Shown piece after piece: positions 10,346-31,987 of a stretch of 64,000 nt of DNA. Within the stretch, counting starts at the first letter, position 1; each line of letters begins with the position of its first letter. Origin of the DNA: Micromussa lordhowensis (lineage: Eukaryota > Cnidaria > Anthozoa > Scleractinia > Lobophylliidae). The stretch spans positions 32,374,348-32,438,347 of the forward strand of contig OZ026601.1 in assembly GCA_964020085.1 (NCBI GenBank), in the 5' to 3' direction. The position numbers and the translations under genes were made by a program. The notes beneath the pieces are model-generated. The model did not search any database and was not told the origin of the DNA. It worked only from the letters and a program-made list of their open reading frames with translations.

Positions 10346-13300
10346 TTTACTAAATACTCTGACCGGATAGTTCGCATCTTATGCCTCATAGTATTACATT
10401 TTTGTAAAGTATTGAGATAATCAGAGAGAGATAATTCACTCTTAATGACATTCTTTTTGACACCCTTAGCAGTCTTGTTTTCCTTGTTTTCTGTCTTGTA
10501 TGAATACATTTTACTTTTTAGACCAACAAATTCTGTAATAGTATCACCAGCTGTTTCATCTTTGAATTTACCAATTACTTTTTTATTTCCTGCAAAATGG
10601 AAATCTGACGATTTGGGATAATCACTATTGTCAAATAGGTCCTTGTCTTTATAGAAGTCACTATATATGTCTTCTGCTTTTATATGGTAAAATAAAGAGT
10701 CAGTATCAGTAAAAAGTAACTTTGCATCAGGGTATTTTTTTCTGATATAGTTGTAATGGAACTCATACATTAATGTTTTACTCATGTCCAAAATAGAGAA
10801 ACCAACATAAGATGGTTTATCTAAGAATAAACAGGCCTTTTTCATCTGTACACCAACTAAATTTTCATCAAATATTTTACTGGAAACGTAGGTTGGTTGT
10901 CTAGTCAATTTCAATAAATGTTTCGGATCAGTTTCTAATTGAATATTAGATCTTTTTCTCAGGTTTTCCATAGTTTTACCAAACACAGAGTTATTCATCA
11001 GCTTAAAGAAGTCTTTCTCAAAACTATTCTTAGCCATTGTTCTCTTTTCAGTGTTAAAATCAATGTATCGTTTCATCCAAGGTCGCTGAGTAAATTCCAA
11101 TACTCTATGAATCTTCTTTAACTTCATACCAAGAGATAAATAAAGCTGCAAATTTCTGTAATGTAATACATATTTTTCTTTATTCCTTAGATTAGGAACC
11201 AACTTGTGAACTCTACCACTGCTAATATTTTCTGAATCTTTTAAATCTTTGCAATACTTTGACAACATATCATCAGTGATTAAAATCTTTTCTGGTGCTA
11301 ATGGATAATCATTATGCAAATCGTGTAGCTCTTCCGGATATTCTAAATCTACCTCTAAAACGACACCTTTTCTAGTATCATTTGTGTAATTTTCTAAGAT
11401 GAAATCTTCAGGATCCTCAAAATCTTCAGAGGGAATCCATTTGAAATCTCCAGTTGGAAGTGACTGTGACATAGCCCATCCATAAAGGTTATTTGCATCC
11501 AAATACATTAAATAGGTACTCGCCTCATCCGGATTGTAATCCTTCATATACTTGTTGTTTGCAACAGCATGTCTGTGTGTAATGGTACTAATCCCACCTC
11601 TCATACCTTTTTCAATGAATAGTTGTTGATCTAGGTCTGCGATTAAGTCTAGATTTATCCCTGTCATTCTCAGTAATGCATCCCATGATAACCCAGGTGC
11701 AGAGTAATAATGACAAGGATCCAACCTATAATACTCCAGACAAGTGCTTCTAAAACTTTCAAATACATCAGCTAAGAGTAGAACATCTGTCCGCAAATAT
11801 AAATCATGATACTCACCTAAGTCTCTGATTTGGAAAGTACTCCAGACCTCCTTTGCGTGTGAGTAGTCACTCTCTGAAATATTTGTATCATTTAAAATGC
11901 TATAAAAATCTTCTATCCTTGGTAAAGACTTCTCACTGAATCGCTGGAATGAGTCCATGTAATCATAAGGGTAAACACCTTTTCGCTTTATTAATCTAAA
12001 TTGATCATCATTTGGAAAAGCTTCTCGTGAATAAAAGAATGCATCATCAGTTAAATTACTGCTTAATCTGTCTAAACTCTGACTCATAAATGAAAAACTG
12101 TCAATGAAAGTCAAATGATTACCTAGTCTAAAACCCATATATTTCTCAAAAGTACTTGCTATAACACTAATATTAAAACGATCTTTTATTTCATGAACCT
12201 TACCATTACGATCTTTAAATTCTGTAATATCATAGACTACACGATCATTTATCAGTTTTCCTAATTTTTGCATGATAAAATGACAGTCATAGCCTTTAAG
12301 ATTGTGAAAGACAACAGGAATTTTTAAATTTTTTGCACTGATAGCCCATTTTAGATTGCAATTTATATGTGCAGCGCCGCGATATTTGCCTGTTATATGG
12401 CAATGATCTCTGACTTTATTATTCATATCACCATCATCATGTATTACAAGATCTTCAGGTTTAAAACGACGCTCACAAATATGGCATACTGTACTATTTT
12501 GGAAATCTCTTTCATTTTCATCTGTCATAATTAATGGTTTCTGAAATTGTTCTCGCACTATTCTTCGACAATCTTCTAATTCTCTCATCATCTGTACAAT
12601 AAATTTATCTATAGCATCTTCTCCACGGTAAATTTCTACTGGTTTGGAATATTTATTATCATAAATACAGACTAATTTATATCCATAACCACAAGCCTTG
12701 TGACTCTGATAAGTACTCGTGTAAGATTTTTCATCAGATGGCTGGCAACCGTCTATTTTCTCTGTAATTGCTTCAAAATCAGCGTAAATGACAAAAGGCG
12801 CAGGTAACATTTTCTTGTGATTTTTGAAATAAATTGTTGACCCTTCCTCAGGCATCTTGATCACTTGGTTTTCGTTAAGAAGCAGGCAATCCTCTCTATG
12901 AATTTTGTATGTTCTCTCAGAAGAGCAACAATGGAGACAACGCAAACAAAAATATTTCCTAGCTTTATGTTTTGTGAATGAACTCATAAATCGATCGAAA
13001 TCCTTAATAAGCACATAGTGGCTGTTTCCATGCTCATCATCATCAATCCATAGTAATTCCATATGGTCTGGAAAATTAGCTTTTGATAATCTGATAGGAT
13101 AAGGAAAACCACTGATACCTTTTTTTTTATCTTCGGGCTTATAGCCAAATACACTAACATTAATCTTATTTTTCTTTTCAATCCGATTCATATCAGAAAA
13201 AGTGACAGGAAAAGAGACACCAGTGTAATCCAACCGTTTCACTGATTCCCTATCTGCCTTAGTTATTCTTTGAGGGTCTTTTTTTAATGGATTTAGGTGC

Positions 13301-13962
13301 CTGTTATGACACCATAGGAAACATTTATTGTCTGTATTTTTGGGATTGATTAAACCCTTCATAGGGTTACCTAGTTCCTTAGGTAGTTCAATATATGATG
13401 ATCCTCTTAATGGAAAGTAAGAGACAATATTAATGATATGTAATTTTACTGATTCAAAGACCCAACCAGAACCTTCAGATAGCCAAACAGCTATTAACTC
13501 TAAAATTCTTTCAATACCATTATGGAGAGACTCTTCTATATCTACTCTATTGGTCACCGTAAAAGGGCCAGCGTTAAAATAAGGTTCTCTGTAAATGACA
13601 CCATCCTCAGTACTCTTTGATAATCGAACCCTTAGTGTAGTATTGTATTTAAAACCCCTTCTATCTGATAATGATCGCATTAAAAGATCAAATATTTTTC
13701 GTTTAGTACTACTTAACTGTATTGATGGGTCATTTCTATTGACAATTGGCACTTCATAAGATTTGACATTACCTCTTAATGCATTAGATCGCTCAGTAAT
13801 AGTGATGTCTTTAGGGATAAATTTCAAATTTCTTCTAAATTCTCTTATAGTTTCAGGCCTATAATATGGAGCGATTTGATCAATCACATTTTTAACCTTA
13901 CTTTGAAGGCTTGTAGGTACAGGTTTTATAGGTCTTATTATTTTTAGCCTCGGTAAAGGCAC
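10297..13962 (-). pseudogene. Protein-primed family B DNA polymerase (PolB), 3'-truncated
   Basis: Open for 1,221 codons from a GTG at 13962; the frame extends upstream to about 14060 without an ATG. Visible parts: Pro/Arg-rich N-terminus; Cys2His2-type finger at about 338-359; Exo I YADFEA (about 394); an endonuclease VII-like Cys/His module with CHICERRF and RDHCHITGKYRG (about 493-537); Exo II FHNLKGYDCHF; Exo III YLRTDVLLLADVF (about 722); motif A YLDANNLYG (about 819); motif B KLMNNSVFGKTMEN (about 987); motif C FTDTDSLFYH (about 1084). It copies the viral genome using a protein primer. The last codons are foreign foldback sequence and the true tail lies at 8763-8880. The first ATG is about residue 95, so the N-terminus must come from elsewhere (see 14018). 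All catalytic motifs remain. Confidence 0.93.
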
Positions 13963-14677: not shown

Positions 14678-16390
14678 TTAAATAATTTTTTTTAAATCCC
14701 CAGCTGGCACCCAACTGTTAAATTCGTCTGGGTAACCTTTCCATTTGACTAATGCTTTTCCTTTTGACTTTCTGATAATTTTCTCTATTCTATAGACCTC
14801 TTGATCTGTCTTTTGTAACTCTTCTCTGTAGAAAGTACCCTTAATCACTTCACCATTTAAGTCTTTTATCTTATAAGTAATAGGATTAGTGAATCTAATT
14901 TCGTCTATGATGAAAACTTCTTCAGTCCAATTAGGAGTATAGCCTTTATCAAAGGTCACCCTTTTGTATTTGCTTATTCGGACTCTATCACCTACTCTAA
15001 ATTCGGGTTTTCGATTTGTTTTTGTTTTTTTGATTTCTCTCGCTAAATCACCATATAAATTAAAATAAACTTTTCCATAGTTTTCAGGTTTTCTAGCTTG
15101 GATAGGCGTCATTCCTATTGATCTATGTTGGCTGTTGTTGTAAGAGGCGAGTATTTTAGGAAGGATGTCAACGTAGACTGTATTGTTTTGCATAGTGAAT
15201 CTCTTATACATTTTATCTTTGATAGTTCTATTCCATCTCTCACAAACTGCTGATTTCTCTTCGTTTTCAGTGGAATAGACCTTTATCTTATCCTTAGCTA
15301 AGAGATCCAACACATTTTTGTTATAATATTCTTTTCCTTTGTCTACCCATAACATTTTAGGCTTATTTTTCACTAATAAGCTTTCAAACGCTTTAGCGAC
15401 TTCTAAACCTGTTTTTGTCTTTAGAGGTACTATCCAACCATATTTACTGAAAAGGTCTAAGACCATTAGTAGATATTTATAACCTCGATTCCATTTGCTA
15501 AGCTTTTGCATATCAACTAAGTCTGAACACCAGATATCATCTACATTATGTGCAATGACTCTTCGCTTGGTAAAATTTCGTTTTATAGGTTTGTGTAACT
15601 CATTAGCTAGCGCTTCCCATGTGTCTAAATTTTTAGCGTTTTTTTTTTTTTTTTTTACTCCTAAACCAAGTTTTTGTTTTGTATTAATAGTGTTTCTAGC
15701 CAGCCAATGACCCCACTGTCTCTCATTCCAGGGAATTGCATCTAAAGCTTGGACCATTTTCTTGTCAGCCACATTTTTACATGATTTTACATTTACTCCC
15801 TTATCAGCACATACTGAGTAATCAACATCGTGTTGCATGGCTATAGCATCTGTCTTACCTGTTGGCTGATCATAGATTTCATAGATTTGGCCAGTATCAC
15901 GATCCCATTTTACTTGTTTTTCTAAATCATTGTAAGGACCAGTATATTTGTGTCCTGGAAGAGTCCAACCAGCTTTCGGTTTAGGTAACTTACCTATTGC
16001 TTTATGAATATCGAGACCCCTTCCCCTTCCCCTTCCCCTTCCACTGATTTTTTTAGAAATATCATCAGCCAGAGAGTCAATTGCTCTATTCAAATACCTT
16101 TTACCAATGCCTTTAACTTTGTCTTTTACATAGTCAGATTTTATTGCTCGACTAGCTCCCCTTTTACCTAGGTTGTACAATCCTTTTGCACCAGCAGCTA
16201 ACCCTTTGACAATTAGTTCATCAAAACCGCTTCCTTGCATTTCCGCTTTAGATATAAAACGAAATTTTGTAATTCCACATTCAGCACAAATACATCGCAT
16301 TGCATTTCTACCATTTTTTGTAATTACAAAAGTTTCAGAATTAGGTACACATTCTGTCCTTTTTCTTTGTCGAACGCAATAAGATAACAT
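14678..16390 (-). CDS. Fused DUF5679-like / PLA2-like / integrase-chromodomain protein
   Basis: Predicted 570 aa in one frame. Residues 1-46 are a DUF5679-like zinc module (YCVRQRK ... NGRNA ... CAECGITK), a paralogue of the gene at 16465. Residues 145-235 resemble the parvovirus-type phospholipase A2 domain: calcium loop YTGPYN (149-154) and HD dyad in QHDVDY (187-188). A poly-lysine run (246-250), encoded by an A18 tract at 15639-15656, leads into an RVE integrase with catalytic D290, D350 and E384. A chromodomain follows (about 527-570, VKWKGYPDEFNSW). PLA2 domains help virions breach membranes; the integrase inserts the element. In other Polintons these are usually separate genes, so the fusion is unusual and depends on tract length. 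Confidence 0.9.
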   Translation of the reverse strand: MLSYCVRQRKRTECVPNSETFVITKNGRNAMRCICAECGITKFRFISKAEMQGSGFDELIVKGLAAGAKGLYNLGKRGASRAIKSDYVKDKVKGIGKRYLNRAIDSLADDISKKISGRGRGRGRGLDIHKAIGKLPKPKAGWTLPGHKYTGPYNDLEKQVKWDRDTGQIYEIYDQPTGKTDAIAMQHDVDYSVCADKGVNVKSCKNVADKKMVQALDAIPWNERQWGHWLARNTINTKQKLGLGVKKKKKNAKNLDTWEALANELHKPIKRNFTKRRVIAHNVDDIWCSDLVDMQKLSKWNRGYKYLLMVLDLFSKYGWIVPLKTKTGLEVAKAFESLLVKNKPKMLWVDKGKEYYNKNVLDLLAKDKIKVYSTENEEKSAVCERWNRTIKDKMYKRFTMQNNTVYVDILPKILASYNNSQHRSIGMTPIQARKPENYGKVYFNLYGDLAREIKKTKTNRKPEFRVGDRVRISKYKRVTFDKGYTPNWTEEVFIIDEIRFTNPITYKIKDLNGEVIKGTFYREELQKTDQEVYRIEKIIRKSKGKALVKWKGYPDEFNSWVPAGDLKKII

Positions 16391-16734: not shown

Positions 16735-16968
16735 ATGGAAGAAATTGAAATTGACAATGAAATACGTAGAATAGAAGCGATGTATAAACATTACAAACTT
16801 CTTTATAGAAAAATTGCCTTTTTATGTTGTTCTGGAGAAACTAAAAGAGTGAGAAATCTGAGAAATAGTTTGAAAAAAGATTTAAAAAAAATCCGACAAA
16901 TCAAACAAATCCAACAAAATATAACTCCTTTCACGCACCTGACGTTGCAGAAGTCCTCAAAGCAATAG
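16735..16968 (+). CDS. Small helical basic protein, unknown function
   Basis: Predicted 77 aa, starting at MEEIEIDNEI directly after a TATTATATA box. Highly charged and helical (KKDLKKIRQIKQIQQN), probably a coiled coil. It is the only rightward gene within the leftward block and is transcribed divergently from 16465-16701, with start codons 33 bp apart. Its end overlaps the end of the protease gene by 12 bp. No family recognised. Confidence 0.55.
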   Translation: MEEIEIDNEIRRIEAMYKHYKLLYRKIAFLCCSGETKRVRNLRNSLKKDLKKIRQIKQIQQNITPFTHLTLQKSSKQ

Positions 16969-17454
16969 TTTAAAATAGTTTTCTATGAATTTTTCATTCT
17001 CTTCTGTGTCAAAGCTAAAAACTTGCAATAAATCGAAATAATCTACTCCTTTATGCATTTCATTCAAGAAATACAAGCAAAAATAGCCACAGGTTGTAGT
17101 ATAGAGATTCTGTATTTGCTGGTTTTGGTGTAATAAATTTAAGTTTTTCTCTTTTGCATGGTTTACCAACTCTTGAAAAGGTGGCATACCAAAAGAGTCA
17201 AAGTAATTTATTGTACCATCACGAACATAGGTTGTAACCCAATGACTACCACTCATATAATGAGGTTCTAAATTATAAATAAAAAGCGCTAACTTATGAT
17301 TATGAGGTACAGTCTGATCTCTACTTAAAACATTCTCTATAGGTATCTTCAAGTATTTACACCAATCTAAAAGATCAAAATTACTCATTGGGATATCTTT
17401 ATGGAATTTAGGCTTTTTTACCTTTTTTTTTTTTTTTTTCCTCCCCTGCCCCAT
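16957..17454 (-). CDS. Adenain-like cysteine protease (C5)
   Basis: Predicted 165 aa from the ATG at 17454; the core begins about residue 23. Catalytic residues visible: H71 in GSHWVTTY, D86 in YFDSFG, Q113/Q115 before NLYTT, C122 in TTCGYFCLYFL. This is the order of adenovirus protease, which matures capsid proteins. Unlike its neighbours it has no TATATA box at its start. It begins inside the upstream gene at an A17 tract, in the -1 frame. It may therefore be made largely as a frameshift fusion to the upstream virion protein. Length is near that of other Polinton proteases. Confidence 0.92.
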   Translation of the reverse strand: MGQGRKKKKKKVKKPKFHKDIPMSNFDLLDWCKYLKIPIENVLSRDQTVPHNHKLALFIYNLEPHYMSGSHWVTTYVRDGTINYFDSFGMPPFQELVNHAKEKNLNLLHQNQQIQNLYTTTCGYFCLYFLNEMHKGVDYFDLLQVFSFDTEENEKFIENYFKLLL

Positions 17455-18961: not shown

Positions 18962-20621
18962 TTAGACAATAACTAATTGATCTCCCACTTTATCAACAAC
19001 AACATCTTCTTCATAGAGAACAATTGCATGCACTCTAAAATCAGCAGCTGCGGCTTGTGAGAGGCGAAATCTTATGTTCAGTTGCTTTGGATCTCGGCTA
19101 ACCTGTTCTGTTTGATAAGTCAGGTCAAAATATAACATTGGGTAAAGATTCGAAAAATTATTGATATTGAGCTGAGTACCTGTATTATAATCATTCTTTT
19201 TCCATGAATAATTCATTAAATCATAATAGATTCTTGTTTTACTTTCTGTATCATATTCAAGTTCTGGATAGTAGACACCATTACCATATTCAAGACGACA
19301 TGTGCTAAGATGACTATTATTGTTAGCAGCATTAAGTTTAAAAGTATCAAAAATATAAGGATTTGCTGCCATATCATTTGTCTTAAGTCTCTGGAAGTAG
19401 AGGAAAACATGTTGTACTTTATCAATACTAGCTGATATTCTGAAATCACCACTGTTTCTGGTAGTATCTGAAGTTTGGTACATTTCTTTGAGGTATTTCC
19501 ATTTAACGATATTAAATATTAGGTGAAATGTAGACTCGGAAAAAAAAAATTCCGAGTCCCAGATGGGATTTGAACCCACGACCCTCCGTGATCTAGTCGG
19601 ATGCTCTAACCACTGAGCTACTGGAGACTCTATGGTGAGCAAGGGCCAATTTGTGGGTCTTGACTGGAACCGCATCGCGCGGCTACACAGCCAAGTATTG
19701 ACTAGCATATGTGAAACTCACTAACAGCATCACGCTGTCACATTAATGCATATCAAGATGCAGCCAACCAACCTAACCAACCTCAACCAACCAACCAACC
19801 TCAAATCCCATCTGGGACTCGGAATTTTTTTTTTTTTTTTTTTCCGAGTCTACATTTCACCTAATATTTAATATCGTTGTTGTTGTTGTTTCATCTTTAA
19901 CATACTCGTATTTCCATTTACTGGGTTTTTGGTATTCACTGATGAATTTAGTCATCAGAGCATCTTTTGGTTCTAGTCGGGGTACCCATAGATAAAAACG
20001 ATCAATTACTAATCTCAATGTATCAACTGCCCCATATAAGACTTCAGCGTCTGGTGTCAGTTCTATTTCAAATTGGAGATCCATTGGAGGTAACAATCGT
20101 CCTTCTAATTCTTCGAAAAAAGAATACCTATTTAATGGTATACTTGCATTAACATGAGCTCTGTTTTCTGTTAATAAACGCCTACTTTCCAAACCAGTGT
20201 TTGTATCATCTGAAGTCCTATCTGTATCTAAATACCATAAGCTATTTTTGGCTGTACTACGCCCAAAATCATCTGAATATTCTAAAAGATTTTTTGCAAA
20301 AGTTACAAGATGAAGATTATCAGTGTCATAGACGATTTTTCCAGCACTCTTTATTACCATATGCTTAATTAATGAATGCGATCCATTAATAATTGTTGTC
20401 CTGGCGTCTGCATTGTCTCCACCATTTGCTCGAAGGTCTAATTTGAATCGCACTTCAAAAAAGGCGTTAAACCAATCAAGCATAATACCACGATCAGTAA
20501 CATGAAATTTGTATCCTTTCTTATTTTGCTCTTGAGTATTGGCAGGAGCTCTTATAGCGTCTTGAAGACGAAATTGCACTAGTTCGTTTCTCTGAACGTT
20601 CTCTGGTGATCTAAATGCCAT
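18962..20621 (-). pseudogene. Major capsid protein (double jelly roll), split by a SINE-like insert
   Basis: The N-terminal part starts at 20621 (MAFRSPENVQRNELVQF, with AATATATA before the ATG) and reads to a stop inside the insert near 19857. The C-terminal part reads from the insert edge to the stop at 18962 and ends GDQLVIV. The pattern (HVTDRGIMLDWFNAFFEV, YSFFEELEGRLLPPMDLQFEIEL) is that of Polinton hexon-like capsid proteins. The insert (19506-19907) is flanked by a 13-bp duplication. Outside it both halves are in register and free of other stops, so the gene was intact until that event. No capsid protein should be made from this copy. Confidence 0.93.
19506..19907. mobile_element. 402-bp foldback tRNA-SINE-like insert in the capsid gene
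   Basis: Flanked by GTATTTCCATTTA at 19493-19505 and 19908-19920. Both ends are inverted copies of each other over about 70 bp (CGATATTAAATATTAGGTG ... ACTCGG, A/T run, CCGAGTCCCAGATGGGATTT). Inside, the minus strand has a tRNA-like head (19557-19627) with A box TAGCTCAGTGG and B box GGTTCAAATCC. A CCAACC/CAACCAAC microsatellite lies near 19765-19800. A 13-bp duplication fits target-primed (LINE-assisted) insertion. The inverted duplication of the 3' end is unusual for a SINE. Confidence 0.85.
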
Positions 20622-22927: not shown

Positions 22928-23563
22928 ATGAAAATTCCTAATTATGATTCAGCTTCTAATAATGACCGCAATTTCAAACGACTGCTACCTTATATGCCTT
23001 CAGACACTTTTCGAATGTTAATTTGTGGACCAAGCGGTTGTGGTAAAACTAACGTTCTTATGCATATGCTTTATAATCTACTCTACTATGATAAGATTTA
23101 CTTGTTTTCTAAAAATCTCGAGCAACCGAAGTACAGACAACTATTAGAAACATTTCGACCCATTTCAGAAGAGGTTGGTTATGATGTCATAGAAGAGAGT
23201 AATGGTGATGTCATTCCTCTGGAAAGCCTAGACCACGATAATCAAAAAATAGTTATCTTTGATGACTTTGCTTGTGAACGAAACCAAAAACCTCTCATTG
23301 AATATTTTATTGGTGGCCGTCATAAAAATTGCAGTGTAACCTATTTAAGTCAATCTTATTATCTCACTCCCAAAGACATCAGGTTGAATTGCTCTCATTT
23401 TTGTATTTTTAACTCTCCAAGTAATGCAGAGACAGCAAGAATGTGTAAAGAAGTCAATGTACCTAAGAAGCGATTCGAGAGTGCGACTAGTGAGCCTTAT
23501 AGTTTTGCGTACATTGATAAGACTAAAAAGACAATTAGAAAAAATTTCAATGAAAATATATAG
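22928..23563 (+). CDS. Genome-packaging ATPase (FtsK/HerA-like)
   Basis: Predicted 211 aa. Walker A GPSGCGKT (residues 34-41), Walker B KIVIFDDF (about 98-105), and the following conserved segment VTYLSQSYYLTPKDIRLNC. The C-terminus contains FAYIDKTKKTIRKNF. These are the A32-like/FtsK-type ATPases that pump viral DNA into the capsid. It starts the rightward block. Its stop is one base before the next start codon (TAG-G-ATG). Confidence 0.92.
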   Translation: MKIPNYDSASNNDRNFKRLLPYMPSDTFRMLICGPSGCGKTNVLMHMLYNLLYYDKIYLFSKNLEQPKYRQLLETFRPISEEVGYDVIEESNGDVIPLESLDHDNQKIVIFDDFACERNQKPLIEYFIGGRHKNCSVTYLSQSYYLTPKDIRLNCSHFCIFNSPSNAETARMCKEVNVPKKRFESATSEPYSFAYIDKTKKTIRKNFNENI

Positions 23564-23807: not shown

Positions 23808-26800
23808 ATGGGTTTTAGCAATGGACAACTTGAATCAACATCAGCAACAGGAAGAGGTGAAAAAGGTGATCCTGGTTTACCTGGAATTGGATTTAGTCTA
23901 ACTGATGATGGTAATTTTGACATTGATAGTAAGCGATTAACTGAAGTAGCCCTTCCTATCGATAATAATGATGCAGCAACAAAAGAGTATGTAGATAATA
24001 ACCTACCAGCTATTGATTTGTCACCTTATCTGAAAAGAGATGGAACAACTTCAATTACTGGTAATTTAAATATGAATAATCATAAGATTAGTGATTTAGA
24101 AGATGCTACTAATGATAATGATGCTGTACCTCTAAAACAATTAAAGGAGATGACAACAGATCATAGGACAAATTATCATTTGCAACCTAGTTTTACTTTT
24201 TATAAAGATTTTGGTGATAAAGCAGAATGTACTAAAGGATCTATACCTATTCCTGGGCACACTGATCATTTTGAACTATTAGAAGCGCCTCGAGAAGGGG
24301 CGCAATCTGGTTATGCTTATTCTACTGTTCGACTAGTGAACAATTTAGAAATAGATCCTAATTATTCTATCGTTTTTGAAATATTTGGATATGATGGAAC
24401 AAATATAGTTACAGATGGTGATTCAGATAGGCTATTATTTACAAATGTCACTGGTAATGCAAACATAATTGATTTTAGTCATGATTGGTTTAGCAATTAC
24501 GCAAAAGCTTACATAATATTTAATAGTTCTAAAAGAGATGTGAACATCCGTTTACAATTTCGATATTATGGTTCCAGTAACTCTAATTTTAAATTTCTAT
24601 TTTTTAGTAGATGTGTCAAAGGAATACAAAGGACTAGTTTTGATCATAGATTATTTAATGTTAAAAGTACTGATTTTTCAGGAACAATATTAAATTTTGA
24701 ACCAATCAATATGAATAATGAAAAGATAATCAATATTGGTAATCCTACTGACCCTAAAGATGCAACAACCAAAGAATATGTTGACGATGAAGACGCTAAA
24801 CAGGATATTGCTATTAATGATTTATCTTCTAGAAAAGCAGATAGGTCAGAAGTATTACTCCTAAACGGAAGCCAAAACATGACTGGTAATCTTTCTATGA
24901 ATGGAAATAGGATTTTTAGCTTACCTATTCCAACTGGGTCGCAGCAACCTGTGACAAAGACTTATTTAGAAAGTCAAATTGCTTCCATACCACAACCTGA
25001 TTTAAGTCTTTATATCAAAGTAGATGGTTCACGCGCTATGACTGGAAGTCTCCAAATGGGTGATAATGCTATCACTGGAATTAGGAGTAGTTCAGCAGAT
25101 AATGCAGCCCTAACAGTTGGTGGCGCAAAATCTACTTATCTACCACTTTTAGGAGATAGAGGTATGGAAGGAGATCTCAATATGGGGGGTAATTCAATTA
25201 TAAATATAAAACCTTTTGTTGAAGATGATTCAAGTCAAGCTGCACAAAATGCTCAATCTAATTATGTTATTAACTTTGGATATTTTCACGGACAAAGAGG
25301 AGATTTAAAAAGAGAAATAAATGATGTCTCTGCAGCAGCGCTTAATAGAAAAAATCCTGATCCGATGGAAGACTCCATTGATATGGCTAATCATAGCATT
25401 ATCCGCTTGAAAGATCCAAAGTCATCAGATAGCTTTCACGCTTCCACTGTTAACTATGTTAATAGGACAATTACTGATAATAACGCTGTAATTAACACTT
25501 TGATTACAGATAAAGTCAATGAATCTGAAGCACTTAATATAAAAGCAAACCGACAAGAGAATGAATTCTCTTTTGTCATGGATGATGATTTGTTTAAGGA
25601 AGATGATGATGATATTGTCAAAGTAAGAAAAGTCGACAAAGATTACTATAATATCAACAAATCTACTTATCAATTTAAAATTAAGTATGACTCTGCTATC
25701 GGCTATTATAGCACCCGATTAACTATTGATTTAAAATCGTTAGATTTAGGCGAGTATACATTAGCTTTTGAAATGTATTATGGTAATCTAGTAGATCGAA
25801 ACGAATTGGTTGTCAACGCAGTATCCGAAACATTAAATGTTTCACGTAATAATACAAATACTTTTACCGATCACAGTAGAACAATAGTGAATTTTCATAA
25901 ATATGGAAACCTTGGGATTATTGATTTAGATATTGATTTAACTTTAAAGTATAAGAATGGTGAAACTTATGATGCAGAAACAAACATCTTTGTAATTGTT
26001 TATGGCGTAAGTGGTCATCAGAATGACGTTGACTCGAGAATTTGGGATAGATTCTATTACATCAGAAACAAAATCGTCTATTTTGAAGCATCTATTAATA
26101 TGTCTAATTATCAAATAAAAGGATTAAATGATGGAAATGAAAACGATGATGCGGTTAATGTGAAACAACTAAATGAATCAGAAGATAATGTTGTAAAATA
26201 TGTTGATGGTGAAATTGCAAAAGTAAATAGTGAAATTGCAAAAGAAAATCCTACTATTAATCAAAATAAAAATTTTCTAGATTTATTAGTAAAATATATA
26301 TTAAGAAATGAATCAAAGTTCACTCTAATAAAAGATTTGTATTTTTCTGATAATGATGAAGCTAGATTACAAAATACATATGCGTTTGCAACTCCTAATA
26401 ATAGAGTGGATTATTACACTTTTTATTATGTATTTCAACATAGCGCAACTACAAATAGTGTAATGTCTATACTTTTTAGATATGGACACTTAGCACTTCT
26501 TAGGTATATTCATATTGATAAAAGCAAAGTCGTACTTTCACGTAATCCTTTAATAGATGAACCATCTTTAAAAACATTTAATATTCCAAATAACGCTTTA
26601 GGAAAGCAAGTCCTATTTTGGATTTGGGAGAAAGACGAAGTTATGAACATAATTTTTAGTGGAATTAGTAATCCAATCGCTTTTAATGATGGTGTTAAAG
26701 GTTATGACCATCTAAGATATATACATGTGGATGATAATCCTTTCACTAGAAAAAGAGGATTAATAACAAGGAATGTTTGGGATAATAATAGTACAGCATT

Positions 26801-26846
26801 TGAAAATGTGAAAGAATTTGAAAAGAGTGAAGGAACTATTATATAA
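23808..26846 (+). CDS. Fiber-like protein 1 (collagen-like plus phage-tail-type repeats)
   Basis: Predicted 1,012 aa; ATTATAT abuts the ATG. The N-terminal tag MGFSNGQ is followed by a short collagen-like GEKGDPGLPG. Four or more degenerate repeats follow, of the type mTGNLsMNgnkI..L..P....DaatKeYVD, known from phage tail fibers and putative Polinton/adintovirus fibers (near residues 60-110, 290-320, 355-390, 420-450, 520-545 and 765-790). Interspersed globular regions may be heads or knobs. Likely a trimeric host-attachment protein. It shares its N-terminus with the next gene. Intact reading frame. Confidence 0.8.
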   Translation: MGFSNGQLESTSATGRGEKGDPGLPGIGFSLTDDGNFDIDSKRLTEVALPIDNNDAATKEYVDNNLPAIDLSPYLKRDGTTSITGNLNMNNHKISDLEDATNDNDAVPLKQLKEMTTDHRTNYHLQPSFTFYKDFGDKAECTKGSIPIPGHTDHFELLEAPREGAQSGYAYSTVRLVNNLEIDPNYSIVFEIFGYDGTNIVTDGDSDRLLFTNVTGNANIIDFSHDWFSNYAKAYIIFNSSKRDVNIRLQFRYYGSSNSNFKFLFFSRCVKGIQRTSFDHRLFNVKSTDFSGTILNFEPINMNNEKIINIGNPTDPKDATTKEYVDDEDAKQDIAINDLSSRKADRSEVLLLNGSQNMTGNLSMNGNRIFSLPIPTGSQQPVTKTYLESQIASIPQPDLSLYIKVDGSRAMTGSLQMGDNAITGIRSSSADNAALTVGGAKSTYLPLLGDRGMEGDLNMGGNSIINIKPFVEDDSSQAAQNAQSNYVINFGYFHGQRGDLKREINDVSAAALNRKNPDPMEDSIDMANHSIIRLKDPKSSDSFHASTVNYVNRTITDNNAVINTLITDKVNESEALNIKANRQENEFSFVMDDDLFKEDDDDIVKVRKVDKDYYNINKSTYQFKIKYDSAIGYYSTRLTIDLKSLDLGEYTLAFEMYYGNLVDRNELVVNAVSETLNVSRNNTNTFTDHSRTIVNFHKYGNLGIIDLDIDLTLKYKNGETYDAETNIFVIVYGVSGHQNDVDSRIWDRFYYIRNKIVYFEASINMSNYQIKGLNDGNENDDAVNVKQLNESEDNVVKYVDGEIAKVNSEIAKENPTINQNKNFLDLLVKYILRNESKFTLIKDLYFSDNDEARLQNTYAFATPNNRVDYYTFYYVFQHSATTNSVMSILFRYGHLALLRYIHIDKSKVVLSRNPLIDEPSLKTFNIPNNALGKQVLFWIWEKDEVMNIIFSGISNPIAFNDGVKGYDHLRYIHVDDNPFTRKRGLITRNVWDNNSTAFENVKEFEKSEGTII

Positions 26847-26866
26847 ATAAATGTATATATATATAT

Positions 26867-27637
26867 ATGGGGTTTACTAATGGACAACATGACAAACCAT
26901 CAACAACAGGAAAAGTAGAAAAGGTTAAAAAAAGAATAGGCTTAAAATTAACTCCAGACAACCATTTCCATTTACAAAACAAGAGATTAACTAACATTTC
27001 CGCTCCAATAAATGATCATGATGCAACCACTAAACGTTTCGTCTCTGATTTATTAAAGACAAAAGCAGCAACTACATACGTTAATAATGAACTAGCTAAA
27101 AAGACTAACTTATCTGCTTTAAAGGATTACGCTTTAATTACTGATTTAGGAACTTTAGCAATCGAATTCAATGATGCATTAAAAAGCAAAGTCGATTACA
27201 ATGATTTAGAGACTAAGACGCAAGATAATAATTTAGCAGCTAATACGCAAAAAACATACCCGTTCATCACCGTCTATGCAGAAGAGAATGGACCACTGAT
27301 TAAAGGTTCTCTCCAATGGAGTTTCGGTAATGGATGTGAGCGAAATAAGCAATATGGTTGGCCTAGTCCTGTAGACGGTAAAGTAGTTCGTGGTAGCATT
27401 TGTGTTTGTGCTGGCAATCATCAAGCATCCGAAGTGATCGTTGGCTTAGTTCTTAATGGCACGGATAAAGATTTAAAAATTGTCAAACCTGTGGATGAAT
27501 GGTCAAAGATGACTATTTTCAGCGATCCGATTACGATACGAGCGGGCGACAGGATCAATTTTCGAAGCAAAACATCGAATTCTTCTGTAACACACGCGAT
27601 GATTAACATTTTGATAGAAATAGACTTTCAACCGTGA
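26867..27637 (+). CDS. Fiber-like protein 2, short paralogue with different head
   Basis: Predicted 256 aa; starts MGFTNGQ after a TATATATATAT stretch. The first 70 residues parallel fiber 1 (tag, KRLTNISAPINDHDATTKRFV). A short coiled-coil shaft follows (YVNNELAKKTNLSALKDYA), then a distinct beta-rich C-terminal domain (about 145-256: ITVYAEENGPLIKGSLQWSF ... DPITIRAGDRINFRSKT). It is probably an alternative attachment fiber. Only 20 bp separate the fiber 1 stop from this start. Confidence 0.7.
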   Translation: MGFTNGQHDKPSTTGKVEKVKKRIGLKLTPDNHFHLQNKRLTNISAPINDHDATTKRFVSDLLKTKAATTYVNNELAKKTNLSALKDYALITDLGTLAIEFNDALKSKVDYNDLETKTQDNNLAANTQKTYPFITVYAEENGPLIKGSLQWSFGNGCERNKQYGWPSPVDGKVVRGSICVCAGNHQASEVIVGLVLNGTDKDLKIVKPVDEWSKMTIFSDPITIRAGDRINFRSKTSNSSVTHAMINILIEIDFQP

Positions 27638-27666: not shown

Positions 27667-27730
27667 AAACAAAGAAATTGTCTTATGCCATAAGACACTG
27701 CGTGGGTGTTAAACAAAGAAATTGTCTTAT
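27667..27730. repeat. Duplicated 20-bp word upstream of the eIF1-like gene
   Basis: AAACAAAGAAATTGTCTTAT occurs at 27667-27686 and again at 27711-27730, with a small inverted CTTATGCCATAAG at the first copy. It fills the 141-bp gap between fiber 2 and the eIF1-like gene, the only gene in the right block with neither a TATATA box nor an overlap with its neighbour. It may be a promoter, terminator or processing signal. Confidence 0.5.
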
Positions 27731-27778: not shown

Positions 27779-28039
27779 ATGGATATTAAAAGTTTATCTT
27801 CTTTGATAGATGAAAGTAGAAAGTTTATTAAAATTTCTCTCGAAAAGAGGGGAAAAAAATCAATCACCTCATTTGAAAAGATTGAAGGTTTTAATTTAAA
27901 AGATTGGAAGAAAAAGTTAGCGTGTAACGGTTTTATTAGAGACCAAACTGTAAACCTACAAGGTGATCAAACTGAAAAAATATATGATGAATTAATCCAA
28001 ATGGGCTATGATAGTGATCAAATTGTTTTTAATTTATAA
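27779..28039 (+). CDS. eIF1/SUI1-like translation initiation factor
   Basis: Predicted 86 aa. After about 17 residues it follows the eukaryotic eIF1 (SUI1) plan: a basic first strand (IKISLEKRGKKSITSFEKIEGF), the helix and strand KKKLACNGFI matching the eIF1 KKxFACNGTV signature, then the VNLQGDQTEKI segment matching eIF1 QLQGDQ, and a last helix/strand ELIQMGYDSDQIVF. Cellular eIF1 binds the 40S subunit and controls scanning and AUG choice. This copy is shorter at the N-terminus. Its place inside the Polinton rules out a simple host gene. It may alter host initiation or favour viral messages with very short leaders (inference). Confidence 0.8.
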   Translation: MDIKSLSSLIDESRKFIKISLEKRGKKSITSFEKIEGFNLKDWKKKLACNGFIRDQTVNLQGDQTEKIYDELIQMGYDSDQIVFNL

Positions 28040-28057
28040 ATATAATAAAATAATATA

Positions 28058-28534
28058 ATGGTGGCTAAAAAGAATATTTTCGATTGGAATCATATTTCAG
28101 ACAAATTATCGACTGATGAAGTAGACGAACTAAAGTCTTATTATCTAAGCTATCATAGGAAATGTTGGGCTTTCAAAAGGGCTTACAAAAGATTCAAATT
28201 GCTCAAATTCATTGGTAATTCACTCTCTGTTCTCACCGCTTCAGGTGGAATTGCTAGCGCTATCGCTACTGGTGGTATCAGTCTAATAGCGATTAGTACA
28301 GTGGCATTATTAGTTAAAGGATATATGGAACACAAAGGTTTAGACTTAAAAATTCAAAATTGTACCTATGCCTATCAAAGTTACCAGCATTTGTTAATAA
28401 TGATTCGAGAAGCGATGCGCTCTGGTGATCTTAACCGAGAAAGTTTAATTAATCAAATGACAAACGTTGACAATTTCGTGATTGACAATAGCCCAATTAT
28501 TGATAAATATTTAAAGATGTATGATGAAAACTAA
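28058..28534 (+). CDS. Two-helix membrane protein, SLATT-like
   Basis: Predicted 158 aa; TAATATA abuts the ATG. A helical N-terminus (YYLSYHRKCWAFKRAYKRFKLL) leads into two adjacent hydrophobic helices around SLSVLTASGGIASAIA and ISLIAISTVALLV. A cytosolic helical domain follows (YAYQSYQHLLIMIREAMRSG) with a tail that may pack on it. The layout resembles SLATT domains and a family I recall next to cnidarian Polinton fibers. It could act in entry, egress or membrane signalling. Unknown. Confidence 0.6.
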   Translation: MVAKKNIFDWNHISDKLSTDEVDELKSYYLSYHRKCWAFKRAYKRFKLLKFIGNSLSVLTASGGIASAIATGGISLIAISTVALLVKGYMEHKGLDLKIQNCTYAYQSYQHLLIMIREAMRSGDLNRESLINQMTNVDNFVIDNSPIIDKYLKMYDEN

Positions 28535-28538
28535 ATAT

Positions 28539-28770
28539 GCGTCAGAACTCGAAATTGGTTTCTGATGAGTCAGAATTCGAAGTTGGTTTCTGATGAGTCA
28601 GAACTCGAAGTTGGTTTCTGATGAGTCAGAACTCGAAGTTGGTTTCTGATGAGTCAGAACTCGATATTGGTTTCTGACGCGTCAGAACTCGATATTGGTT
28701 TCTGATGAGTCATAACTAAAAGTAGTTTCCGACGCGTCAGAACTCGAAATTGGTTTCTGATGCGTCAGAA
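28539..28770. repeat. 28-bp tandem repeat next to the right Polinton end
   Basis: About eight copies of a 28-bp unit containing GTCAGAACTCGAAATTGG and TTTCTGATGA. Unit junctions form 12-bp palindromes (CTGACGCGTCAG) or near-palindromes (CTGATGAGTCAG). It lies between the last gene and the right inverted repeat, and has no counterpart at the left end. Possible roles are replication origin, packaging signal or insulator. No coding potential. Confidence 0.9.
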
Positions 28771-28805: not shown

Positions 28806-29061
28806 AATTACGCATCGTGAGAACAATCTAAATTTTACTATATCCTACGCATCCTACGCATTTTAGGCATTTTTGAGCGTAAAATAGTATGTCTAATTTT
28901 TACGATATCTACGCTACTTACGCTACCTACGCATAACTACGCTGTTTTAGTGTAGTATATCATATATTTTAGACTCAGAGATTTTACACTAACTACGCAT
29001 AACTACGCTGAGATGCGTAAAATCCGGAAATTGCGCCAGATCCCCCAGTTCCTACACTACT
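28806..29061. repeat. Polinton right terminal inverted repeat (256 bp)
   Basis: Reverse complement of 7320-7575, with no mismatch seen by eye. Ends ...CCTACACTACT before the GCAGTT duplication at 29062-29067. Confidence 0.96.
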
Positions 29062-29504
29062 GCAGTTTGCCTGTCTGGGGCACTTTTAACGCGAAACCAC
29101 AACTCGTATCCCTTGGTCAAGGTGTTGTTTATAAGATCTGCTTTGTGAGATCCATTAGTGCAATATTCTTTTACTCTGTCTTTTAACGATGATTCAGGAT
29201 GTACATTGGAGGTGCTTCCAATGTACAGCACGATCTTCGTCTCGTTGCAGTTCTCCGCCTTTCTTGCCTGCCATTCATAAATTCCTCATCCAGATCCCAC
29301 ATCAAAGTAGAGACCGGGAGCAGTTGCCAAAATCTCTTTAGATTCTTGCCTCCATCCATTCGGCCTGTGGGTAGAAAACTGGGACTGTTGGGCAGCCTGA
29401 GGTACCATAGCCTTTACCCAGTCGGACCATCTGTACCGAAGAAGTGGAGATGCCGCTTCCGCAGCATGTTCTCGAGGGAAACCTGAACTTGAGTTCATAT
29501 TCAT
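29062..29504 (-). pseudogene. GIY-YIG gene copy c, 5' part cut off by the Polinton
   Basis: The minus strand reads an N-terminal region similar to copies d and f (RYRWSDWVKAMVP), then GIYEWQARKAEN, IVLYIGST (the YIG strand), KEYCTNGSHKADLIN and YELWFRVKSAPDRQ, ending at the GCAGTT junction. An in-frame TGA just before GIYEW means this copy may have been defective before or after the Polinton arrived. The rest of the domain is at 7227-7319. Confidence 0.8.
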
Positions 29505-31504: not shown

Positions 31505-31987
31505 TCATGGCAGTATACACCTTAATCCGCCATTGCATCTCACATTCCAGGCATAATTGTAGCGATCCAGGAGGTCATTCTCCAGGTCTTCTGCGGTCTC
31601 CCTATCTCCAGCACTCTTGACTCGAACCCAGAGCTCATACCCTCTGCGCAAGGCGTCGTTAATGAGATCATCTTTATGGGATCCGTTTCTGCAGTATTCA
31701 AGGATTCTGCCTCTCAATGACCCTGGCTTACAACTGCATGTGCTCCCAACATAAACGACATGATTGGGTTGATCGGGCAATGTACCTCTAGCTTGCCATT
31801 CATATATTCCACAGTGCTCGGCCTGATCAGGGAAAGCGTTTCTTATGCTTGAGCAAATGAAGCCAGCTTGATTTGGTCCTCGTGGTTCGAGATTATAACC
31901 TACAGTTTGTCGGGGTAGCATGGTCCTCTCCCAATCTGACCATCCCGCCACTGGAAGATGACTTCTTTCTCGCCAAGGTAAGGCCAT
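31505..31987 (-). CDS. Stand-alone GIY-YIG nuclease domain protein, copy d
   Basis: Predicted 160 aa, uninterrupted. N-terminus MALPWRERSHLPVAGWSDWERTM, then CGIYEWQARG, VVYVGST, RILEYCRNGSHKDDLIND, YELWVRVK and ENDLLDRYNYAWN, which are all the core positions of a GIY-YIG nuclease (GIY, YVG, Arg, catalytic Glu, Asn). It is the copy most like the one disrupted by the Polinton and shows what that target looked like. It lies 2.4 kb right of the Polinton. Cytosolic or nuclear; no targeting signal seen. The biological role of these small animal GIY-YIG proteins is unknown. Confidence 0.75.
   Translation of the reverse strand: MALPWRERSHLPVAGWSDWERTMLPRQTVGYNLEPRGPNQAGFICSSIRNAFPDQAEHCGIYEWQARGTLPDQPNHVVYVGSTCSCKPGSLRGRILEYCRNGSHKDDLINDALRRGYELWVRVKSAGDRETAEDLENDLLDRYNYAWNVRCNGGLRCILP

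Follow-up and report, generated by a model that had tools for sequence, protein, structure and literature searches.

A Polinton integrated in the genome of the scleractinian Micromussa lordhowensis encodes an 86-aa protein of the SUI1 (eIF1/aIF1) family, which combines the conserved letters of eukaryotic eIF1 with a hairpin of archaeal length that lacks loop 2. The window analysed comprises 64,000 nt of contig OZ026601.1 (assembly GCA_964020085.1, nt 32,374,348 – 32,438,347, forward strand), and all positions given here are those of the window. The original prediction, made from the letters of the sequence, had described an eIF1-like frame on the plus strand at nt 27779 – 28039, with the motifs KKKLACNGFI and VNLQGDQ, as part of a Polinton. 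The frame has the coordinates and length described, both motifs are present as read, and the gene lies between two identical 256-bp inverted repeats with GCAGTT on either side.

Assignment to the family, which had been a matter of motif reading, holds by profile: PF01253 (SUI1) covers residues 16–77 of the protein (3e-10, 40.9 bits, against a curated cut-off of 25.5; Pfam). The best match among solved structures is aIF1 (4mo0; 2.9e-08 in a search of PDB chains), with the human and yeast eIF1 chains ranking below it (about 2e-04 to 6e-03), and a profile of eight Polinton SUI1 proteins returns values of 6.3e-11 for aIF1 and about 5e-05 to 1e-04 for the eIF1 chains. Several designed pentatricopeptide chains, ranked between aIF1 and the eIF1 chains among the PDB matches, were set aside as repeat artefacts (single stretches of no more than 1.5 bits in the two alignments shown). 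Among the NCBIfam models, those of YciH/archaeal type score 41–42 bits, below their curated cut-offs, and the eukaryotic SUI1 model TIGR01160 scores 25.5 bits, which does not reach its cut-off of 143.9. When profiles were compared with profiles, the Polinton proteins matched archaeal aIF1 at 97.8% (1.2e-12) and eukaryotic eIF1 at 95.2% (2.6e-08). By this measure the Polinton protein is nearer to archaeal aIF1 than to eukaryotic eIF1, and it has no Pfam match to eIF5. Neither of the two outcomes that would speak against the original prediction, a lack of any significant SUI1 match, or absence from all related Polintons together with signs of a recent host fragment, was observed.

The element displays hallmarks of a Polinton, with terminal inverted repeats, a 6-bp target duplication, and matches to PF00665 and PF04665 above cut-off (Table 1). 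A long frame on the minus strand (nt 10297 – 13962), which we take to be the polymerase from its motifs, was matched neither by a polymerase model of Pfam nor, at 0.1, by any PDB chain. The SUI1 gene begins 141 bp after the end of the second fibre-like frame; a frame of 158 aa follows it after 18 bp, and the right inverted repeat is within 0.8 kb. Between the last gene and this repeat is a tandem array (nt 28537 – 28760) with a 28-bp unit that contains a partial palindrome (TCAGAA...TTCTGA). At the other end, the DNA at nt 7290 – 7319 looks similar, on visual comparison, to part of a GIY-YIG-like frame at nt 31505 – 31987 (and nt 4436 – 4900), and the element may have inserted into a copy of another repeat.

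Table 1. Features of the Polinton and its SUI1 gene (positions in the window; scores are those of the Pfam models named)
Feature	Position (nt)	Strand	Details
Target site duplication GCAGTT, left copy	7314–7319		6 bp; flanks inverted repeat
Whole Polinton	7320–29061		21,742 bp; terminal inverted repeats, target duplication, integrase, A32-type ATPase and VLTF3 matches
Left terminal inverted repeat	7320–7575	+	256 bp; starts AG; identical to right copy
VLTF3-like late transcription factor	7577–8572	-	PF04947, 4.1e-41
Long frame, presumed polymerase by motifs only	10297–13962	-	No Pfam or PDB match
Phospholipase A2-like, integrase core and chromodomain in one frame	14678–16390	-	570 aa; PF08398, PF00665, PF00385, all above cut-off
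Adenovirus-type protease, weak	16957–17454	-	PF00770, 0.005, 17.0 bits (cut-off 21.3)
Double-jelly-roll capsid, second piece	18962–19708	-	PF21738, 8.5e-05, 22.3 bits (below cut-off 27)
Capsid gene, putative first piece	19857–20621	-	By position; no Pfam match
A32-type packaging ATPase	22928–23563	+	PF04665, 2.3e-14
Fibre-like gene	23808–26846	+	1012 aa; PF03906, 3.9e-09; YadA_stalk, 2.9e-08; both above cut-off
Second fibre-like gene	26867–27637	+	256 aa; PF03906, 0.011 (below cut-off)
Direct repeat upstream of SUI1 gene, copy 1	27667–27686	+	20 bp; exact match
Direct repeat upstream of SUI1 gene, copy 2	27711–27730	+	20 bp; exact match
SUI1-domain (eIF1/aIF1-like) gene	27779–28039	+	86 aa; PF01253, aIF1 4mo0, predicted model
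Basic loop 1 (EKRGKKSIT), codons 22–30	27842–27868	+	Charge +3
Short beta3-beta4 hairpin at loop 2 site, codons 52–59	27932–27955	+	8 residues, charge 0
Frame adjoining SUI1 gene	28058–28534	+	158 aa; weak SLATT-type PF18181, 0.041, 14.4 bits (cut-off 26.3)
Right terminal inverted repeat	28806–29061	-	256 bp; identical to left copy
Target site duplication GCAGTT, right copy	29062–29067		6 bp; flanks inverted repeat

No second translation-factor match was found among the 19 frames scanned with Pfam. A tRNA-like sequence (nt 19554 – 19627; ARAGORN, Rfam) does occur between the two capsid-like frames, and was considered as a second translation gene. This was dropped: the stretch splits the capsid-like frames (nt 18962 – 20621, minus strand), has A/T runs and an inverted repeat of some 36 nt on its borders, and was taken as a later insertion. 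The insertion seems to disrupt the capsid gene in this copy, which is therefore probably not a complete virus.

The features that set the protein apart are concentrated in loop 1, loop 2 and helix 1. The loop 1 segment is basic, with a charge of +3 in the Polinton protein (P0001) and +4 in all 25 eukaryotic rows of the alignment. At the site of loop 2, where 24 of these 25 rows have 13 residues with a charge of -1 to -3 (the 25th, Hordeum, has a duplication that extends the segment to 37 residues), the Polinton protein has only 8 residues and a charge of 0. Measured from CNG to QGD, the spacing is 9 residues, compared with 14 in 12/12 eukaryotic rows; the corresponding CxG-QGD spacing in archaea is 9 residues in 13 of the 14 rows measured, two of which are identical, and 11 in the other. 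This hairpin count does not include five rows, one cyanobacterial, in which CxG is missing. The five residues absent from the Polinton hairpin are those of loop 2. The helix 1 segment is also short, at 12 residues compared to 16 in 25/25 eukaryotic rows and 17 in one archaeal row; the helix has thus lost about one turn, and none of the cellular rows compared shows such a deletion. In its core the protein carries the letters of eukaryotic eIF1 (ACNG and LQGDQ), where all 11 archaeal rows have GG and QGxH, and with a single cysteine in its whole length it lacks the N-terminal zinc knuckle of aIF1. Taken together, the protein reads as a hybrid, with eukaryotic letters and a basic loop 1 but a hairpin of archaeal length.

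Structure prediction from the eight Polinton rows only gave a model with pLDDT 66 and fewer strands. A model from 30 rows, 25 of them eukaryotic eIF1, reached pLDDT 85 and the order of elements of SUI1/eIF1 (strands 17–24 and 27–33, helix 40–47, strands 51–54 and 57–61, helix 65–74, strand 82–85), i.e. strand-strand-helix-strand-strand-helix-strand; as it is built mostly on cellular eIF1 rows, this model is dependent on eIF1.

A search of 5.8 billion proteins yielded 7 clusters from 8 candidates that match the Polinton SUI1 protein, with 83 member sequences (cluster sizes 72, 6, 1, 1, 1, 1 and 1). Identity is 79–98% over the aligned part, which represents 44–100% of the query. The representative of the 72-member cluster is full length. 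Relatives P0002–P0004 are full length and P0005 has a 5-residue deletion; P0006 and P0007 start in another frame of the same DNA, and P0008 has a different N-terminus. The contigs behind these clusters are inferred to be Polintons as well. For the ATPase of this element, 1,905 relatives were found at 1e-05, the most distant of the 120 listed having 61% identity. Either the SUI1 gene is confined to one Polinton lineage, or its more distant relatives share too few exact words with it, as the search relies on exact shared words and the query is short. A search with the e/aIF1 profile gave 5,927 matches, and among the 120 listed most are cellular eIF1s. The top match of that search, P0009, is labelled Bacillus amyloliquefaciens and lies on a contig of 548 bases; it is probably a contaminated record. 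In viral contigs, no relative was found for any of five queries: the SUI1 protein, a pair of e/aIF1 alignments, the ATPase and an ATPase alignment. Of two DNA patterns scanned against viral contigs, one found nothing and the other a single contig, in which the frames surrounding the match were by eye not SUI1-like.

Trees were computed from four of the eight Polinton proteins (P0005–P0008 were omitted as shorter or altered), 12 eukaryotic proteins together with P0101 from the 120 listed, and 18 of 28 loci, one of the 18 being cyanobacterial. The four Polinton rows are separated from archaea together with the eukaryotic rows (support 100/97 with all columns, 97/97 with core columns) but do not fall among these 12 (99/97 and 98/97); branches are long, and the bootstrap of the core tree had not settled. 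Trees constrained to join them with six animal-like rows (AU p 0.186) or with four fungal-like rows (0.225) were not rejected, for groups that were named after the first tree had been seen. Identity to the 25 eukaryotic eIF1s is 29–37%, and a recent capture of eIF1 from the host was rejected on that basis, the host's own eIF1 not being among the 25. The phylogeny, which the original prediction had proposed as a check on host capture, leaves an old, fast-evolving host origin compatible with the data. Descent from archaea is not claimed: the profiles favour aIF1, but the CNG/QGDQ letters and the tree favour the eukaryotic line. The simplest reading is an old origin from a eukaryotic eIF1, which would then have lost loop 2.

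Start codons of the element were compared at the mechanical starts of the ORF list for 16 ORFs; these ORFs do not include the small unassigned frames, the frame at nt 23424 (which overlaps the ATPase), the polymerase-like frame, which starts with GTG, or the second of the capsid-like frames. At position -3 of the AUG there is T in 10/16, A in 5/16 and G in 1/16. Against an assumed 75% of purines at this position the six purines give p 0.0016, but the upstream regions are 56% purine, against which six of 16 is not striking, and the T at -3 may merely mirror AT-rich leaders. TATA occurs within 10 nt of the AUG in 8/16 ORFs, compared with a mean of 2.75 in shuffled sequence, where 8 was reached in 1 of 500 shuffles; this may mean very short leaders under a VLTF3-like factor. 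TATA directly before the AUG resembles an initiator that overlaps the start codon. The SUI1 gene has no TATA at its AUG. Upstream of it is the 20-bp direct repeat of Table 1, and none of 100 shuffles yielded two such copies, even with up to 3 mismatches allowed. The gene seems to stand apart from the others, as if separately controlled.

A plausible role, somewhat short of probable, is that this eIF1 without loop 2 binds the eIF1 site, relaxes the stringency of start-codon selection, and favours the weak-context AUGs of the element. If made, the protein would take the place of host eIF1 on the 40S subunit, the initiator tRNA would settle in the P site even at AUGs skipped by host eIF1, and the loosened stringency would be a gain for the element's own weak-context AUGs. 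According to the available text of two papers (PMC6412873, PMC6237735), loop 2 is found only in eukaryotes and touches the D-loop of initiator tRNA; in yeast, the acidic loop 2 of eIF1 is reported to clash with this D-loop. Substituting acidic or bulky residues of loop 2 in yeast eIF1 is reported to give more UUG initiation (accessible part of PMC6298780), and loop 2 substitutions to give more initiation at weak AUGs (accessible part of PMC7049704). At the start codon eIF1 gives way to the N-terminal domain of eIF5, which stabilises the settled tRNA and which the same portion of PMC6298780 describes as free of the clash, its loop 2 being shorter and more basic. With loop 2 missing at the eIF1 site, the initiator tRNA would be expected to settle more easily. 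The missing loop is by itself no proof of laxity, because archaeal aIF1, also without loop 2, still takes part in start-codon selection (PMC6237735, as far as its available text goes). The shortened helix 1 could weaken binding. More tentative is the larger proposal that the Polinton turned eIF1 into a loosener of start-codon selection that spread with the element, so that the 40S subunit accepts weak AUGs abutting TATA. If true, a translation factor would be documented for the first time in a Polinton, and an eIF1 naturally without loop 2 would be at work in a eukaryote.

Two other roles on the ribosome are each unlikely. The protein might be a competitive inhibitor that occupies the eIF1 site of the 40S subunit without supporting scanning, lowering host translation while the mRNAs of the element, perhaps with very short leaders, escape. 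Such a role would suit a protein that keeps loop 1 and has a shortened helix 1, and the TATA close to half of the AUGs would fit very short leaders, but in its core the protein matches working factors, and the AUG of the SUI1 gene itself has no TATA. It might equally be an ordinary supplement, which acts like cellular eIF1 or aIF1 and provides more factor during expression of the element, leaving stringency unchanged. The function of aIF1 in archaea without loop 2 (available text of PMC6237735) and the profile scores, nearest to aIF1, agree with this; the effects of loop 2 changes on start-codon choice in yeast eIF1 (PMC6298780 and PMC7049704, both in part) do not.

The remaining explanations are all improbable. 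A re-initiation or recycling factor, with a SUI1 domain acting like that of DENR or eIF2D and unlike eIF1, is a slim prospect: loops 1 and 2 vary in those SUI1 domains too (PMC6237735, from its accessible text), but ACNG and LQGDQ are letters of eIF1, and no DENR-type model was among the NCBIfam matches, a set that may include none. A passenger, i.e. a captured gene carried without function or with another use, would explain the altered or replaced N-terminus in 3 of 7 related clusters and the 5-residue deletion in one, yet the 72 members of one cluster with its full-length representative, and an unbroken frame that keeps the conserved columns of the family, make this improbable. That the gene is a piece recently derived from the eIF1 gene of the host is hardly credible; the eukaryotic letters CNG and QGDQ would be expected of such a fragment, but the low identity to the 25 eukaryotic eIF1s (among which the host's own is not included) and the family of close, full-length relatives are not.

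Among viruses, translation factors are usually regarded as a hallmark of the giant ones. That such factors occur there, as the original prediction had noted, agrees with the sections available of two papers, one reporting SUI1 for mimiviruses (PMC5313130) and the other including it where it tabulates the translation factors of giant viruses (PMC6259494). No report of eIF1/SUI1 in a Polinton or Maverick was found in the literature searched, subscription journals being mostly outside its reach. In the accessible portions of the Polinton literature, 'initiation factor' refers to a transcription factor or unrelated matter, or to giant viruses, and the available parts of some other papers on Polintons, adintoviruses or related viruses contained no eIF1 or SUI1 and, in one of them, no initiation factor. 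A viral SUI1 is thus already known from giant viruses, and what is new is a hybrid without loop 2 in a Polinton of about 22 kb. The natural lack of loop 2 offers a direct way to test whether eukaryotic eIF1 needs this loop to enforce AUG context, and whether a genetic parasite profits from an eIF1 without it.

Compared with known systems, the protein shares with eukaryotic eIF1 (human EIF1, yeast Sui1) the SUI1 domain, basic loop 1, ACNG/LQGDQ and the predicted order of strands and helices, but differs in lacking loop 2, in a helix 1 shorter by about four residues, in its identity of 29–37%, and in lacking the conserved N-terminal (DPFAD) and C-terminal (HGF) stretches. Archaeal aIF1 is its best profile match and has the same 9-residue hairpin without loop 2, whereas the Polinton protein has CNG for CGG, QGDQ for QGDH, a shorter helix 1 and a position on the eukaryotic side in trees, and is without the zinc knuckle, which is present in 64% of 744 aIF1 sequences according to the accessible text of PMC6237735. 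With the N-terminal domain of eIF5 it would share the 40S site and, by analogy of the loop only, a shorter and less acidic loop 2 (PMC6298780, in part). The SUI1 proteins of giant viruses such as mimiviruses, likened here by description and not by sequence, are also virus-encoded, but their genomes hold several translation genes, while here there is a single one in an element of 21.7 kb.
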